NCBI GenBank assembly: GCA_900467185.1
Contig: UBPA01000020.1
Location: 1-64,000, forward strand
DNA length: 64,000 nucleotides
Direction of reading: 5' to 3'
DNA from: Hyphomicrobiales bacterium
Lineage (GTDB): Bacteria; Pseudomonadota; Alphaproteobacteria; Rhizobiales; Rhizobiaceae
The translations under genes and the position numbers were made by a program. This document shows, piece by piece, positions 57,323-64,000 of this stretch. Position 1 is the first letter of the stretch, and every line of letters starts with the position of its first letter. The notes below the pieces were generated by a model. That model saw only the letters and a program-made list of their open reading frames with translations. It made no database searches and was not told the origin of the DNA.

Positions 57323-58219
57323 ATGGCCCGGTCCACACTTTCTTTGCGGCACATCGCGGCGTCGAGTGCGCTTGCCCTCGTTTTCGCGTTCTCCATCGGC
57401 CTCACGCAGGTCCGCGCCGCGACGCTGGAGCCCTTCAAGGACGATCTCTTCGGATATGGCCGCATCCTGGAATCGCGCGACGATGGCAACTGGCTGACGA
57501 TCGACTATGACGAGATGCGCGATATCAATGGCCGGGACGAAATTCCCGAACGGCGCGTCAAGCGGCCTTATGTGTCTCTCGGGGTCAAGCGCCAACAGGC
57601 GAACGAGACCGTCGATATCGGCGGGCGGGGTGTCGATGTGTTCCGGGTGGGCGCCGCGCAGAATGCCGCCTTCACCGTGATCTTCATCCATGGCCGTGGC
57701 GGCGACCGGCGGCTCGGCGCGAACGACTATTCCTTCGGCGGCAATTTCAATCGGCTGAAAAACCTCGCGGTCGAGAATGGCGGCGCCTATTACGCGCCGA
57801 GCGCCCGCTCCTTCGATACGGATGGCGCGGCGGATATTGTCGGCCTGATCGACGCTCTGGCGCGCCGGTCCCCCGGCAAGCCGATCATCCTCTCCTGTGC
57901 GTCCATGGGCAGCTTCCTCTGCTGGGGCGTGACGCGCAATGCGACGGCGGTCGGTCACCTCTCCGGGATGATGATCATGGGCGGGGCGACCGATCCCGAC
58001 TTCGGCAAGAGCGCGGCTTTCGCTCGAAAGTTGCCGATGTTCTTCAGCCATGGCAGCGCGGATGGCACCTATAAAGCGGAGGATCAGGCGGCGCTCTACG
58101 GTCGTCTGAAGAAGGGCGGCTACCCCACCCGCTTCGTCCTGTTCCAGACGGGCACGCACGGAACGCCGGTGCGGATGACCGATTGGCGGGACGCTATCAA
58201 CTGGATCCTGTCCCGCTGA
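57323..58219 (+). CDS. Secreted alpha/beta hydrolase
   Basis: A 298-residue protein with a signal peptide (cleavage near residue 32, VRA-AT). The fold is seen from FTVIFIHGRGGDRR, the nucleophile elbow SCASMGSFLC (Ser194), the acid GSADGTYKAEDQ and His in GTHGTPVRMTDW. It resembles esterase/dienelactone-hydrolase-like proteins; the substrate is unknown. It is divergent from parE. Confidence 0.85.
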   Translation: MARSTLSLRHIAASSALALVFAFSIGLTQVRAATLEPFKDDLFGYGRILESRDDGNWLTIDYDEMRDINGRDEIPERRVKRPYVSLGVKRQQANETVDIGGRGVDVFRVGAAQNAAFTVIFIHGRGGDRRLGANDYSFGGNFNRLKNLAVENGGAYYAPSARSFDTDGAADIVGLIDALARRSPGKPIILSCASMGSFLCWGVTRNATAVGHLSGMMIMGGATDPDFGKSAAFARKLPMFFSHGSADGTYKAEDQAALYGRLKKGGYPTRFVLFQTGTHGTPVRMTDWRDAINWILSR

Positions 58220-58409: not shown

Positions 58410-59891
58410 ATGACACTCTCCCGGCAATCGAAAACCGGGAGTGCGATCATGGATGCGCGAACCGACACACGGCTTGTTCCGCTTTGCGTCGATTTGGATG
58501 GTACGCTTGTCGCAGCGGATACGCTGTGGGAAGGCGTCGCCGTCATCCTGTTCCGCAATCCGCTGATGCTGTTTGCGGTCGTTCTCTGGGCGTTGCGCGG
58601 CAAGGCGCATCTGAAGCACGAGGTGGCGGCACGCTCCGGACGCACGGGGGGCGACTGGCCTTATCGTCCCGAGGTCATGGAGCGGCTGCAGCAGGAACGG
58701 GCGTCCGGCCGCGATATCGTGCTCGTCACCGGTGCTGCCGAACGGGTGGCGCTGGACGTCGCAGCCCATGCCGGCATCTTCACGGACGTGCTGTATTCCT
58801 CGCCCACCCACAACCTGACGAGCCACCGCAAGCGCGAGGAGCTCGTTGCGCGCTATGGCGAGGCCGGGTTCGACTATATGGGCAACAGCCGTGACGACGT
58901 GGCCGTGTTCGATGCCGCCCGCACGGCCATTGTCGTCGCACCGGATCGGGCGGCGGAAGCCTGGCGGCGCCGGCATGGTGCCGAGCGTCTCGAAACCGGC
59001 ACGATCGGCTTCAAGGACACGCTGAAATCCATTCGCGTCCATCAATGGGCGAAGAACATCCTGATCGCCGTGCCGATGGCGCTCGATCACGACATCTTCC
59101 AGTGGAACGCGCTGGTCAACACGGCCATCGCCTTCTTCGCCTTCAGCTTTCTCGCCTCGGCCGTGTACGTCATCAACGATATCTCGGACCTGACGAACGA
59201 CCGGCGCCATCCGAAGAAGCGGTTCCGGCCGCTGGCAAGCGGTCGCATGTCCGTTCCCACCGGTCTCGCGCTTGCTGCGATCCTCCTCGTCGCGTCGGTC
59301 GCGCTGACGCTCACCATGCCGGTCGACTTCATTCTGACGCTCGGAATTTACCTCGTTATCACGACGGCTTACACGTTTTTCCTCAAGCGAAAACTGCTGG
59401 TCGATGTCTTCACGCTGGCAGGCCTCTACACCATCCGCATCGTCGCCGGCGCAACGGCGACCGGCACGGATCTTTCCTTCTGGCTTCTCGCCTTCTCGAT
59501 CTTCTTCTTCCTCAGTCTGGCGCTCGTGAAGCGCTACGTCGAGCTGGACGAGCATGGCGGCGACGCCGGAACGCAGGTTCCCGGGCGCGGCTATCTGCAG
59601 GTCGATTTCGAGATGGTCGGGCAGGCGGGCGTGTCCTCGGCCTTTGCCTCCGCGCTCGTTCTGGCGCTCTACATTCACAGCGTCGAGATGCAGCAGATGT
59701 ATAGCATGCCGGCCGCGCTCTGGCCGCTCTGCCCCCTGGTCCTCTACATGCTGCTGCGCATCTGGATGCTCGCTCGTCGCGGCGCGCTGCATGAGGATCC
59801 CGTCGTCTTCATCATGCGCGACTGGCGCAGTATCGCCACCATGGCCGCCGGCGGCGTGCTTGTGATGATCGGCGCGGTCGGTATTCAATGA
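58410..59891 (+). CDS. HAD-UbiA fusion: polyprenyl-phosphate phosphoribosyltransferase-like protein
   Basis: A 493-residue fusion. The N-terminal HAD phosphatase domain (about 20-210) has VDLDGTLVAAD with Asp28/Asp30 and GNSRDDVAVFDAART. The C-terminal UbiA domain (about 220-493) has eight or nine helices with KSIRVHQWAKNILIAVP and the Asp-rich INDISDLTNDRRHPKKRFRP. The UbiA part resembles decaprenyl-phosphate 5-phosphoribose synthase (Rv3806c), and a fused phosphatase could play the Rv3807c role of removing the 5-phosphate. It overlaps the next gene by four bases. Confidence 0.9.
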   Translation: MTLSRQSKTGSAIMDARTDTRLVPLCVDLDGTLVAADTLWEGVAVILFRNPLMLFAVVLWALRGKAHLKHEVAARSGRTGGDWPYRPEVMERLQQERASGRDIVLVTGAAERVALDVAAHAGIFTDVLYSSPTHNLTSHRKREELVARYGEAGFDYMGNSRDDVAVFDAARTAIVVAPDRAAEAWRRRHGAERLETGTIGFKDTLKSIRVHQWAKNILIAVPMALDHDIFQWNALVNTAIAFFAFSFLASAVYVINDISDLTNDRRHPKKRFRPLASGRMSVPTGLALAAILLVASVALTLTMPVDFILTLGIYLVITTAYTFFLKRKLLVDVFTLAGLYTIRIVAGATATGTDLSFWLLAFSIFFFLSLALVKRYVELDEHGGDAGTQVPGRGYLQVDFEMVGQAGVSSAFASALVLALYIHSVEMQQMYSMPAALWPLCPLVLYMLLRIWMLARRGALHEDPVVFIMRDWRSIATMAAGGVLVMIGAVGIQ

Positions 59892-61225
59892 CGCGCGCGA
59901 CCACACCACCGAGACCTGCGAATTTCGACAGCTGGGGTCGCATCGATACGCGCCCGCGCCGGGCCGTCAGCCCGGATGCCTTTGAGGACGAGATCGGTGC
60001 TGCGGCGCCGGGGGCCTACCTGCCGTTCGGCAACGGACGCTCCTATGGCGACAGTTGCCACAATGATCCGGGTCTGCTGATCGACAATCGTCGCCGCGGC
60101 CGCATTCACGGCTTCGATCCCGGCACCGGCATACTCTCCGCGGAAGCCGGCGTCACGCTGTCGGCCATTCTGGCGCGCGCCGTGCCGCACCGCTTTTTCC
60201 TGCCGGTCACCCCCGGCACTGCCCATGTCACGCTGGGCGGCGCGATCGCCAACGATGTGCATGGCAAGAACCACCACGCCCGCGGGACCTTCGGACATCA
60301 TATCCGAAGGCTGACGCTGCTGCGCTCGGATGGCGGCGTTCTCACCTGCTCGCAGACCGAGAACCCGGAGATGTTCCGCGCCACCATCGGCGGCATGGGA
60401 CTGACCGGCCTGATCCTCGATGTCGATCTGCAGATGATGAAGGTGCCCTCCGCACACATCCAGCAGCACGCCATCCGCTTCGACAGCCTCGACGCCTACT
60501 TCGAGATGATCGACCGCGTCGATGCCGAGCATGAATATTCCGTCGCCTGGATCGACCAGCTGGCAACGGGCCGCAAAGCGGGCAGGGGCATCCTGCTGGC
60601 CGGCGACCATGCCGACGCATCCTGCGAATTTCCCGATCTGCCGCGCGGACGCACGCTCGGCATCCCCGTGACACCGCCTTTCAGCCTTCTGAACCGCCTG
60701 ACGCTGCGGGCCTTCAATGCCGCCTATATCCGCAAGGCCAAAGCCGGCGAGACGGTCGAGACGGTGAAATGGTCCGGCTATTTCTATCCCCTCGATGCGA
60801 TCAGGAACTGGAACCGCCTCTACGGCCCCAAGGGCCTCTACCAGCACCAGAGCGTCTATCCCGCCGAGGTGGCGCCTGCCGTCACCGCGCGGCTGATGGA
60901 AACCGCACGCGATGCCGGACATGGGTCCTTCCTGACGGTCCTCAAGCGCTTCGGCGAGCACCGTTCGCGCGGACTGTTCTCCTTCCCGCGCCCCGGCTTC
61001 ACGCTCACGCTCGATGTCGCCAACCAGGGCGAGGGCACGCTGAAATTGCTCGACGCGCTCGACCGGATCGTCGTCTCGGCGGGCGGGGCGGTCAATCCTT
61101 ACAAGGACGCGCGGATGAGCCCGCAGACCTTCGCGGCGTCCTTCCCCGAATGGCGAAAGCTCGAGGCGATGCGGGATCCCGCGATGATGTCCGACTTCTG
61201 GCGACGCACGGCGATGGCACTCTGA
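59888..61225 (+). CDS. DprE1-like FAD-dependent oxidase
   Basis: A 445-residue VAO-family flavoprotein. The FAD region LPFGNGRSYGDSCHNDPGLL, then FFLPVTPGTAHVTLGGAIAN DVHGKNHH and GTFGHHIRRLTLL, and the closing FPEWRKLEAMRDP with MSDFWRR match decaprenylphosphoryl-beta-D-ribose 2'-oxidase. The reaction would be oxidation of a polyprenyl-phospho-ribose at C2. It is translationally coupled to the UbiA gene, strongly supporting a shared lipid-linked substrate. A 126-bp AT-rich gap with overlapping hairpins follows. Confidence 0.9.
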   Translation: MTRATTPPRPANFDSWGRIDTRPRRAVSPDAFEDEIGAAAPGAYLPFGNGRSYGDSCHNDPGLLIDNRRRGRIHGFDPGTGILSAEAGVTLSAILARAVPHRFFLPVTPGTAHVTLGGAIANDVHGKNHHARGTFGHHIRRLTLLRSDGGVLTCSQTENPEMFRATIGGMGLTGLILDVDLQMMKVPSAHIQQHAIRFDSLDAYFEMIDRVDAEHEYSVAWIDQLATGRKAGRGILLAGDHADASCEFPDLPRGRTLGIPVTPPFSLLNRLTLRAFNAAYIRKAKAGETVETVKWSGYFYPLDAIRNWNRLYGPKGLYQHQSVYPAEVAPAVTARLMETARDAGHGSFLTVLKRFGEHRSRGLFSFPRPGFTLTLDVANQGEGTLKLLDALDRIVVSAGGAVNPYKDARMSPQTFAASFPEWRKLEAMRDPAMMSDFWRRTAMAL

Positions 61226-61351
61226 ACCGCGAGATAGAATCAATTTTAATAAAAGAAATCAGCAAGTTTCACCGAATAGTGGACTCTCCCCCGTAAGGTG
61301 GGTTCCACGGAGTTACAAGCCCGGAGAGGGTGCCCGAAAAGGGAGTACGAC

Positions 61352-61792
61352 ATGAAATATCTGGCCTTCATACTGTTTACCGTGCTGACCAATGCGGCGG
61401 CACAGCTGATGCTGAAGCAGGGCATGCTGAGCCTCGGTCCGTTGACCTTCACGCCGGACACCGCGATCGCCCGCTTCTTTCAGATCCTCTTCAACCCGTG
61501 GGTTTTTGCCGGGCTTGCAACCTTCGCCATCTCGATGGTGTCGCACCTCTATGTGCTGTCGAAGGTCGAATTGTCCTTCGCCTATCCTTTCCTCAGCCTC
61601 GCCTATGTGGCGGTGGCCATCTTCGCTTACTTCATCTTCCGCGAGGACCTGAACGCCTGGCGCATCGCCGGCATCGGCTTCATCTGCGTGGGAACCGTCC
61701 TCATTGCCCAGTCCGGCCGCTCGACGCCCGCGCAAGCCGCAGCGATCGACACCCCGGCCGCAAAATCCATCCATATTGGGAGCCCGACATGA
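61352..61792 (+). CDS. Small DMT/ArnF-like membrane protein
   Basis: A 146-residue protein with four helices (residues 3-22, 50-70, 78-95, 103-122) resembling ArnE/ArnF or half-EamA proteins; LTNAAAQLMLKQGMLSLG and LSFAYPFLSLAYVAVAIFAY are typical. Its size, and its place between a DprE1-like oxidase and an SDR, suggest it flips a polyprenyl-phospho-sugar to the periplasm. GGGAGTACGAC precedes the ATG. The 3' end overlaps the SDR by four bases. Confidence 0.85.
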   Translation: MKYLAFILFTVLTNAAAQLMLKQGMLSLGPLTFTPDTAIARFFQILFNPWVFAGLATFAISMVSHLYVLSKVELSFAYPFLSLAYVAVAIFAYFIFREDLNAWRIAGIGFICVGTVLIAQSGRSTPAQAAAIDTPAAKSIHIGSPT

Positions 61793-62805
61793 AACACGTC
61801 ATTTTCGGAGGCGACGGCTTCGTCGGTCGCCACCTTGCCGAGCGCCTCGTCAACGAAGGCGAACAGGTTCTGATCGCCGACATCGTCAAGTCCGATCTAC
61901 CGCATTACGCCCATGGCCGCGTCCGCTTCGTGCACTGCGACGTGACCGATCTCGACCAGGTCATGAAGGTCGATATCGGCCCCGAGGACATGGTCTACAA
62001 CATGGCGGCAAAGATGCTTTCGCCGCTGCAGGTGCGCGCCAAACGCTGGAAATTCTTTTGGCCGGTCAACTATTACGGTGCTGAGAACATCATGAAGGCG
62101 ACGGCGGCTTCGGGCGCCAATCGCCTCGTCCAGTTCACGACCGACATGATCTACGGCCACACGGTGCAATCGCCGCAGGCTGAAGATCATCCGGTCAAGC
62201 CGCTCGGCGAATACGGCAAGTCGAAATGGGCGACGGAGCAGCTCTGCCATGCCTATCGGGAGAAGGGCATGCGGATCTCGATCTTCCGTCCGCGCCTGAT
62301 CATTGGCCCCGGCCGGCTCGGTATCCTGGAAAAGCTGTTCAAGCTGATCGACGCCAATCTGCCGGTGCCGATGATCGGCTCGGGCAAGGCACCTTACCAG
62401 TTCATCTCCGTGTTCGATTGCGCCGAAGCCGCGCGTCTCGCCTGGAAGGGTGGCGTGCCGAACGAGGCCTACAATCTCGGCTCCGACAATCCGCCCTCGG
62501 TGCGCCAGCTTCTCGGCGGGCTGATCAAGCATGCGGGCTCGAAATCCATCCTGATCCCCACGCCGGGCTTCGCGGTCAAGGCGACGCTGGCCGCCTTCGA
62601 TGCGATCAACCTGCCGATCATGGATCCGGAACAGTACCTGATCGCCGACGAGATGTGCGTCCGCGAAACCGGCAAGCTGAAGCAGGAGCTCGGCTGGAAG
62701 GCCCAGTTCAATGACGGCGCCATGCTGATCGCCGCCTATGACGAATATCGCGCGAAGAAATCCAAAGGCACCGTCGGCACGCCCGCCGCCCTGCCGGCCG
62801 AATAA
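61789..62805 (+). CDS. NAD-dependent epimerase/dehydratase (extended SDR)
   Basis: A 338-residue extended SDR. GGDGFVGRHL at residues 7-16 is the Rossmann loop; FTTDMIYGHTVQSP and GEYGKSKWATEQLCHAYRE supply the Thr/Tyr/Lys centre. FRPRLIIGPGRLGILEKLFK is a sugar-nucleotide epimerase block. It could act in place of DprE2 or provide a keto-sugar for the downstream aminotransferase. It is coupled to the ArnF-like gene. Confidence 0.9.
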   Translation: MKHVIFGGDGFVGRHLAERLVNEGEQVLIADIVKSDLPHYAHGRVRFVHCDVTDLDQVMKVDIGPEDMVYNMAAKMLSPLQVRAKRWKFFWPVNYYGAENIMKATAASGANRLVQFTTDMIYGHTVQSPQAEDHPVKPLGEYGKSKWATEQLCHAYREKGMRISIFRPRLIIGPGRLGILEKLFKLIDANLPVPMIGSGKAPYQFISVFDCAEAARLAWKGGVPNEAYNLGSDNPPSVRQLLGGLIKHAGSKSILIPTPGFAVKATLAAFDAINLPIMDPEQYLIADEMCVRETGKLKQELGWKAQFNDGAMLIAAYDEYRAKKSKGTVGTPAALPAE

Positions 62806-62819
62806 GAGGGAACGACAAG

Positions 62820-64000
62820 ATGCTCGATACGCCCGCCCGTGTGCTTGTTGACGCCCCCGCCATCGACGGCCCGCAGCCCGTCCGCAGAGCGGTTGCCAAG
62901 CCCGACCTCCTCTCCGTCGAAGACGCCAAAGCCCTGACCGTTCCGGAAATGACGACCCTGTTCAAGGACCACGTCAATCCGGGCCAGCTCCACTTCATGA
63001 AGCTGCTCGGCTTCCACAAGGTGAAGATCGAAAGCGCCGAGGGGATGTACTACACCGACCAGAACGGCCGGAAGATTCTCGATTTCTTCGGCGGTTTCGG
63101 TTCGCTCGCCTTCGGCCACAACCATCCGCGTCTCATCGAAGCCCGCAAGCGCTTTCAGGACGAGAACCGCCACGAGATCGCCATCGCCTTCATGTCGCAA
63201 TATGCGGCAGCCTTTGCAAAGAATCTCGCGACCGTTTCGCCCGGCGATCTCGACATGGTGTTCCTCGGCTCGTCCGGCTCCGAGGTCATGGAAGCCGCCG
63301 TCAAGCTTGCCGAGCGCGCTGCCGGCCCGAAGCGGCCCAAGGTCGTCTATGCTGAGAACTCCTTCCACGGCAAGACGAAGGGCGTGTTGAACATCACGGA
63401 CGGGGCCCTCTACCGCGCCGATTTCTCGGTGTCGGGCAACACCGTCCGCGTGCCCTTCGGCAATATCCAGGCGATCGAGAGCGCCTTCCGCGCCGATCCG
63501 CAGATCGGGGCGATCGTTCTGGAAACCATCCAGGGCGGCGGCGGCATCATCCGCGCACCCGACGGCTTCTGGACGGAACTCCGTGCGCTCTGCGACCGCT
63601 ATGGCGTCGTCTGGGTCGCGGACGAGGTCCAGTGCGGTTACGGCCGCTCCGGCCGCTTCTTCGCGTTCGAACATGAGAATGTCGTGCCGGACATCACGGC
63701 GCTCGCCAAGTCGCTCGGCGGCGGCAAGGCGGCGGTGGGCGCCATGATCGCCCGGCGCGAGATCTACATGAAGGCCTATGGCACGCCGAAGACGGCGATG
63801 ATCCACGCGATGGCGACGTTCGGCGGCATGGGCGAGGCCTGCGTCACGGCCATCGAGGCGCTGAACATCCTGTATGACGAGGGCCTGATCGACAATGCCG
63901 CGGAGCAGGGCGCCTACCTGCTCGCCCGCCTCGAGGCGCTGCGCGAGAAATACCCGAAGATCATCAAGGAGGTTCGCGGGCAGGGCCTGATGGTCGGGCT
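62820..64000 (+). CDS. Class III PLP-dependent aminotransferase (3' end beyond the window)
   Basis: At least 393 codons, starting MLDTPARVLVDAPAIDGPQP with AGAGGG upstream, and open to the window edge. FFGGFGSLAFGHNHPRLIEA, LGSSGSEVMEAAVKLAERAA, WVADEVQCGYGRSGRFFAFE and ALAKSLGGGKAAVGAMIARR are class III motifs; Lys297 should bind PLP. An unusual ~45-residue N-terminal extension precedes the fold. Position 14 bases after the SDR indicates the product pathway involves an amino sugar or amino acid conjugate. Confidence 0.92.
   Translation, partial: MLDTPARVLVDAPAIDGPQPVRRAVAKPDLLSVEDAKALTVPEMTTLFKDHVNPGQLHFMKLLGFHKVKIESAEGMYYTDQNGRKILDFFGGFGSLAFGHNHPRLIEARKRFQDENRHEIAIAFMSQYAAAFAKNLATVSPGDLDMVFLGSSGSEVMEAAVKLAERAAGPKRPKVVYAENSFHGKTKGVLNITDGALYRADFSVSGNTVRVPFGNIQAIESAFRADPQIGAIVLETIQGGGGIIRAPDGFWTELRALCDRYGVVWVADEVQCGYGRSGRFFAFEHENVVPDITALAKSLGGGKAAVGAMIARREIYMKAYGTPKTAMIHAMATFGGMGEACVTAIEALNILYDEGLIDNAAEQGAYLLARLEALREKYPKIIKEVRGQGLMVG

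Follow-up and report, generated by a model that had tools for sequence, protein, structure and literature searches.

A five-gene operon near the 3' end of the analyzed window (the whole 64,000-nucleotide stretch of contig UBPA01000020.1 from a Hyphomicrobiales bacterium of the family Rhizobiaceae) is predicted to make and export a polyprenyl-phosphate amino-pentofuranose. The genes lie back to back on the + strand and encode a fusion of HAD phosphatase and UbiA domains (UbiA-HAD), a DprE1-like oxidase, an ArnF-like protein, an extended short-chain dehydrogenase/reductase (SDR), and a class III aminotransferase (AT). From the distribution of these genes we infer that the AT replaces DprE2. For the complete six-step scheme given below, with the position of the amine left open, we estimate a probability of about 0.55; a lipid-linked amino-pentofuranose, by whatever route, is the probable product. 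The preliminary description, made from the letters of the window, had proposed a polyprenyl-phosphate pentose pathway with an aminated donor as its distinctive part, and the comparisons reported here point the same way.

Conservation of the Operon

The five genes form a real conserved operon. Their presence was counted by BLAST on DNA or on six-frame open reading frames, because gene calls were misplaced in loci of high GC content. Among 121 genomes of the order, relatives of the UbiA (E 1e-20) were found in 33 genomes and the SDR (E 1e-45) in 7, in all cases adjoining UbiA. The AT (E 1e-90) was found in 6 of the 121 genomes, every one among the 7 SDR genomes and beside UbiA. In wider draws, with the AT at E 1e-75 and the bacterium's own genome counted, it was found in 2 of 337 genomes of the class and 8 of 398 genomes of the phylum. 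The SDR adjoins the AT in the checked loci of G692, G550, G594, G798, G788, and G323. One of the eight genomes from the phylum, G748, has a distant AT (35-39% identical) in a long frame, with no SDR within 4 kb. A plasmid search gave a sole match, Neorhizobium sp. SOG26, which is unannotated there; all five genes are present.

Additionally, 80 named alphaproteobacterial loci were compared. These are 80 of the 433 candidate relatives from an SDR-alignment scan of named species genomes, and the SDR is present in all of them by selection. The loci belong to Rhizobiaceae (37 loci), Phyllobacteriaceae (20), Aurantimonadaceae (11), and other or unplaced groups (12). The AT was found in all 80, ArnF in 79, UbiA in 78, and the oxidase in 75, while neither DprE2 nor GtrA was found in any of the 80 stretches. 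Gene order and tight spacing are maintained in nearly all of these loci. Gaps within -30 to 200 bases were found for 73 of 75 measurable ubiA-oxidase junctions, 71 of 75 oxidase-arnF, 78 of 79 arnF-sdr, and 78 of 80 sdr-AT junctions; since such gaps are kept in nearly all measured loci, the arrangement is not due to chance. The SDR is 99% identical in Rhizobium sp. PP-CC-3A-592 and Ferranicluibacter rubi, which are among the closest named loci. The genes missing from L103 are explained by a contig end that cuts this locus. The proposed conservation of AT and SDR with the UbiA/oxidase pair in relatives thus holds both across the Rhizobiales genomes and in the named loci. In L081 and L113, matches to UbiA, oxidase, or AT are split in two pieces, which suggests frameshifts or sequencing errors.

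Enzymes of the Predicted Pathway

The closest published pathways, the three-component pentofuranose systems, were described in 2024 (PMC11127046). In these systems, a HAD phosphatase-UbiA fusion makes polyprenyl-phosphate ribofuranose, an ArnE-like protein has been proposed to act as flippase, and the sugar is added by a GT-C enzyme. Some of the systems also have a GalE-like SDR, to which the conversion of ribo- to xylofuranose is due; its deletion turns xylofuranose into ribofuranose. DprE1/E2 homologues, which epimerize lipid-linked ribose, go with the arabino versions (PMC11127046).

Domains of all five proteins encoded by the operon are backed by Pfam and NCBIfam searches. UbiA-HAD matches UbiA (87 bits) and HAD (PF12710, 30.1 bits, cut-off 27), both above cut-off and within the same protein; the fusion suggested previously is real, and its synthase and phosphatase activities are predicted from these domains. 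The best NCBIfam model is PRK08238 (583.6 bits, cut-off 351). Models of DPPR synthases score 134-154 bits, below their cut-offs, and quinone and heme models 31-33 bits. The top solved relative is the mycobacterial decaprenyl-phosphate phosphoribosyltransferase 8j8j (E 1.9e-29), with which UbiA-HAD has in common the stretch ND..D...D..HP.KRFRP. In a tree of 47 UbiA domains, which took in 10 of the 80 named loci, 45 domains of the synthase kind are split by very long branches from the genome's own quinone and heme UbiA. A grouping with these quinone and heme proteins of the same genome, which would have spoken against the proposed function, was not observed. These features fit a predicted polyprenyl phosphoribose synthase of the three-component type.

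The oxidase matches PF01565 and, by phmmer, the solved DprE1 (E 2e-67); its NCBIfam DprE1 score of 340.4 bits is below the equivalog cut-off of 500. It is identical to DprE1 at the positions aligned to R58, Y60, H132, K134, W230, Q334, Q336, K367, and K418, which we take to be the DprE1 active-site residues. This set is near-universal across 95 aligned oxidases. Four nearly fixed sites, T374, N403, Y405, and L425, set the oxidases accompanied by the AT apart from the DprE2-linked ones (82 of 83 module oxidases compared; L081, broken in two, was removed by a length filter). Three of the four sites align at DprE1 C387 or at most 3 residues from K418, and these positions would fit a changed substrate. 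In a tree of 28 oxidases, including 7 of the 80 named loci, AT-module oxidases are found in two places, and a single clade of them (G043 included) is rejected (approximately unbiased test, p 0.001). The oxidase of G043, a genome without the AT, is placed within the AT-module clade and carries the module-type letters at the diagnostic sites.

The ArnF-like protein matches Pfam EamA (31.8 bits, above cut-off) and scores 57.0 bits with the NCBIfam ArnF model (cut-off 99), the ArnE model also being below cut-off. By these matches it is a candidate flippase, as suggested earlier. The SDR is GalE-like (PF01370, 125.6 bits) with a YxxxK motif, and its GGDGFVG, Thr118, Tyr142, and Lys146 are invariant among seven orthologues. 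The AT matches PF00202 (282.4 bits), and both K297, presumably the pyridoxal phosphate lysine, and D268, which we likewise assume to be related to this cofactor, are invariant among six orthologues. The nearest named NCBIfam models for the AT are PigE and putrescine aminotransferase, both far under cut-off.

Alternation of the Aminotransferase and DprE2

The surroundings of UbiA were surveyed in stretches of 5-20 kb for 32 of the 33 loci found (one was not fetched). A DprE1-like oxidase is present in 18 of the 32 loci. DprE2 is encoded locally in 11 of these 18 and the AT in 6; the two never occur together, and one locus (G043) has neither. Genome-wide, DprE2 was found at E 1e-40 in 10 of the 121 genomes: eight of the 11 genomes with a local DprE2, G043, and G085, in which the UbiA locus lacks the oxidase. 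In G043, DprE2 is encoded at an unlinked position and has 67% identity to the query. In the six AT genomes, including that of the bacterium studied here, DprE2 was not found genome-wide at E 1e-20; the same search recovers the DprE2 of G043.

The G043 genome (L050, L165) combines UbiA, the DprE1-like oxidase, ArnF, and SDR with this unlinked DprE2, and the AT is absent. If C2 and C3 are both inverted, the published scheme would predict lyxofuranose for this genome. This sugar is in no solved carbohydrate structure, according to PMC11127046. Further AT-less relatives of G043 were not found, the SDR (E 1e-60) being present in none of three sampled family members. Extended SDRs from the clusters of L065, L066, and L168 were considered as kin of the operon SDR and are not close relatives.

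Association with a Second Type of Synthase

G323, a genome from outside the order, has ArnF (66% identical), SDR (58%), and AT (69%) beside a divergent unfused UbiA. This UbiA passes the DPPR-synthase equivalog cut-off (242 bits, cut-off 234) and, in the UbiA tree, groups with the unfused UbiA of L169, apart from the module UbiA. The oxidase of the G323 locus is a different one, and a membrane protein encoded there is a candidate transferase. The ArnF-SDR-AT set thus seems to travel as a unit, joined to a ribose-lipid synthase along more than one evolutionary path, and it is mainly for this reason that the AT is placed in a lipid-pentose pathway.

A cousin cluster was found in G079 (L169:5320-9563). 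It includes an extended SDR (31% identical to that of the operon), a small multidrug-resistance-type protein, a GMC oxidoreductase, and the unfused UbiA, which exceeds a DPPR-synthase cut-off. DprE1, DprE2, and AT were not found within the 11 kb stretch of this locus.

Proposed Pathway and Alternatives

In the proposed pathway, UbiA-HAD would place ribose on the lipid, followed by dephosphorylation. The GalE-like SDR would then invert C3, like ORF13 of Citrobacter youngae O2, and the DprE1-like oxidase would form a 2-ketone. The AT, instead of DprE2, would turn this ketone into an amine, giving a 2-amino-2-deoxy pentofuranose. Finally, the ArnF-like protein would flip the lipid-linked sugar, and a membrane glycosyltransferase, perhaps the unlinked protein described in the next section, would move it onto an envelope acceptor. 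The assignment of the amine to C2 is tentative, with somewhat less than even odds.

Several observations weigh against this pathway. The G323 oxidase forms a long branch in the oxidase tree. Its letters at the four diagnostic sites are all of the DprE2 type, which shows that pairing with the AT does not depend on these sites. Of the 11 local DprE2 matches, 3 are only 37-38% identical, and their genomes are absent from the genome-wide list at E 1e-40. The three independent AT/DprE2 pairs, with labels assigned by hand from the search results, all change in the same direction, and a sign test on them (p 0.25) cannot reach 0.05. In L119 (8528-12537, uncultured Hoeflea), the hydrolase found upstream of the operon (see below), ArnF, SDR, and AT are present with no local UbiA or oxidase. 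For none of the module proteins did we find an enzyme activity, a lipid, or a glycan. In L110, L129, and L132, UbiA, ArnF, SDR, and AT occur without an oxidase in between, the oxidase being the only gene missing locally; in the UbiA tree, L110 is almost the same as L132 and L129 has another position, which makes two oxidase-less lineages. Either the oxidase of these genomes is encoded elsewhere or the AT uses the ketone of the SDR, and the latter keeps a 3-amino product alive. For such a product, SDR and AT would be the aminating pair: the SDR would form a 3-ketone, the AT would convert it to a 3-amino-3-deoxy pentofuranose, and the oxidase would be an add-on changing C2. Retention of SDR and AT in the three oxidase-less loci agrees with this route, as does the co-occurrence of SDR and AT, the tightest pair: the AT is present in 80 of 80 SDR-found named loci, and the SDR in every examined locus with a close AT (the distant AT of G748 has no SDR nearby). 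Nevertheless, G043 retains the SDR without the AT, and the surveyed oxidases are partnered by AT or DprE2, never by both. Moreover, if the oxidase changes C2, no obvious operon enzyme remains for reducing the 2-ketone, and GalE-like epimerases normally hold their keto intermediate. We regard the 3-amino route, which would still give a lipid-linked amino-pentofuranose with the amine at another position, as rather unlikely.

A plain pentofuranose donor (xylo- or arabinofuranose) is also an unlikely product of the operon; in this case the SDR would take the part of DprE2, and the AT would catalyze another reaction on the same acceptor or glycan. The core enzymes would suffice for a plain donor under the published scheme (PMC11127046), but the presence of DprE2 in addition to the SDR in G043 indicates that the SDR is not simply a DprE2 replacement, and the AT accompanies SDR and ArnF even in the divergent synthase context of G323. 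Amination at C5, for which the flavoenzyme would first oxidize the primary alcohol, would likewise give an amino-pentofuranose but is very improbable. Chemistry of this type is carried out by class III aminotransferases and flavin dehydrogenases in aminoglycosides. The nearest relatives of the AT also fit it, as PigE and putrescine aminotransferase act on aldehydes or terminal amines. On the other hand, the oxidase retains the DprE1 active-site set, as far as the residue roles assumed above hold, and G043 has it together with an unlinked DprE2. A hopanoid role of the AT, like that of HpnO, was considered as a further possibility. Replacement of DprE2 by the AT stays the preferred reading.

Candidate Glycosyltransferases

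The preliminary description suggested that a glycosyltransferase may lie beyond position 64000 or elsewhere. The first location is ruled out for the adjoining region, where triosephosphate isomerase, SecG, and CTP synthase are encoded downstream of the AT; for the second, the genome has an unlinked candidate membrane protein. Large membrane proteins of two unclassified families adjoin the operon in 0 of 39 named loci from L068-L106 and in 28 of 41 from L107-L147, hence in 28 of all 80. In the sample of 121 genomes, a large membrane protein is nearby in all six module loci other than that of the bacterium studied here, and only that of L052 matches PMT_2 above cut-off. The genome of this bacterium encodes an unlinked member of one flanking family (G000:C5:37003-38679), 35-45% identical to five module-linked proteins; the other family was not found in it at E 1.

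Apart from the PMT_2 match of L052, no Pfam glycosyltransferase match was found for the flanking families, and NCBIfam matches are very weak. Profile searches gave no solved relative under E 0.1, and three profile-profile comparisons linked the families neither to each other nor to two PMT_2 proteins. An AlphaFold model of one family is of poor quality (mean pLDDT 56), and Foldseek gave no match for it under E 0.001. In the two families (alignments A3 and A4; L107-L147, 3' of the AT), Trp-Asp is conserved close to the first loop predicted. They are possibly new, putative GT-C families. A PMT_2 protein encoded on contig C9 of the studied genome was rejected as a partner: it is a single match in a different gene neighborhood, with no link to the operon seen.

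Operon Structure and Neighboring Genes

The window is part of a contig of 270,204 bases (C16) in a genome of 5.04 Mb. Coordinates of the operon genes are given in Table 1. The likely ATG of UbiA-HAD is 39 bases after position 58410, the start given initially. The ubiA/oxidase and arnF/sdr pairs overlap by 4 bases each, the oxidase-arnF gap is 126 bases, and sdr and AT are separated by 14 bases; these coordinates bear out the architecture reported initially for the five same-strand genes.

Table 1. Genes of the predicted amino-pentofuranose operon (window coordinates).
Feature	Position	Strand	Length	Predicted role
HAD phosphatase-UbiA fusion	58449-59891	+	480 aa	polyprenyl-phosphate phosphoribosyltransferase and 5-phosphatase (predicted)
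DprE1-like flavin adenine dinucleotide (FAD) oxidase	59888-61225	+	445 aa	C2 oxidation of lipid-linked pentofuranose (predicted)
ArnF-like four-helix small transporter	61352-61792	+		flippase of lipid-linked sugar (predicted)
GalE-like extended SDR	61789-62805	+	338 aa	pentofuranose C3 epimerase or dehydrogenase (predicted)
Class III pyridoxal phosphate aminotransferase	62820-64000 (stop at 64289, past the window)	+	489 aa in full (L004 5821-7290)	amination of keto-pentofuranose (predicted)

Immediately 5' of the operon, at 57323-58219, a protein resembling alpha/beta-hydrolases is encoded; its N-terminus is hydrophobic and its Pfam matches are slightly below cut-off. This hydrolase was also found in L068-L109 (except L103, the cut contig), L116, and L119, and is unmatched in the remaining named loci.

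Comparison with Known Systems

The mycobacterial and noeC pathways were initially taken as the known frame. Homology to the former stands, and the closest published kind is instead the three-component pentofuranose system (PMC11127046). The operon and the systems of Citrobacter youngae O1/O2 are alike in the HAD-UbiA fusion, the small transporter predicted to be ArnE-like, and the GalE-like SDR, and a further likeness is the large membrane protein, a putative glycosyltransferase, near the operon in many relatives. The operon SDR, a GalE-like extended SDR with YxxxK, may correspond to ORF13, an SDR epimerase of the xylofuranose versions. Differences are the combination of a DprE1-like oxidase with the SDR, the lack of DprE2, and the extra class III aminotransferase; the word "aminotransferase" is absent from the main text of PMC11127046. 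In a search of the aminopentose-lipid literature, with most subscription journals outside its coverage, nothing on the pathway was found except this paper.

With the mycobacterial decaprenyl-phospho-arabinose pathway (Rv3806c, DprE1/DprE2), the operon shares a homologous phosphoribosyltransferase and the DprE1-like oxidase. In contrast to this pathway, the genome has no DprE2 (E 1e-20), the HAD phosphatase is fused, the partner is ArnF-like rather than GtrA-like, and the AT and extended SDR are additional. The Arn pathway, which makes 4-amino-4-deoxy-L-arabinose on undecaprenyl phosphate, has in common with the operon the idea of a lipid-linked aminopentose and, as predicted, an ArnF-like flippase, for which the operon protein scores below the model cut-off. 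The operon AT is class III (PF00202) and not ArnB-type; ArnB has the DegT fold. The Arn sugar comes from UDP-glucuronate, whereas for the operon sugar, synthesis on the lipid, starting from phosphoribosyl pyrophosphate (PRPP), is predicted. In Azorhizobium, the genes noeC, noeH, and noeO are tied to a D-arabinose precursor, with first steps likened to mycobacterial arabinosylation (PMC2443382). Both noeCHOP-dependent arabinosylation of Nod factor and the operon are rhizobial, and, compared by description, no aminotransferase is mentioned in the passages of that paper covered here.

Significance

The operon had also been suggested to mark an undescribed envelope decoration. Since the three-component system is the closest published kind, most of the pathway is already described (PMC11127046), and it is the aminotransferase variant that is new. 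We slightly favor an undescribed route to an aminopentose envelope decoration, present across Rhizobiaceae, Phyllobacteriaceae, and Aurantimonadaceae, in which the amine is added to the lipid-linked sugar by a class III aminotransferase acting instead of DprE2. If the prediction is true, amination is possible in addition to epimerization for lipid-made pentofuranose donors derived from PRPP, which would be a new branch of the pathway family. The operon would then be a named gene set for a product that was not found in the searched literature, and this product would be a clear target for mass spectrometry. The alternation of AT and DprE2 would then provide a sequence rule for predicting the lipid-linked pentose of a genome, and a positively charged surface sugar would be predicted in many plant-associated and environmental bacteria.

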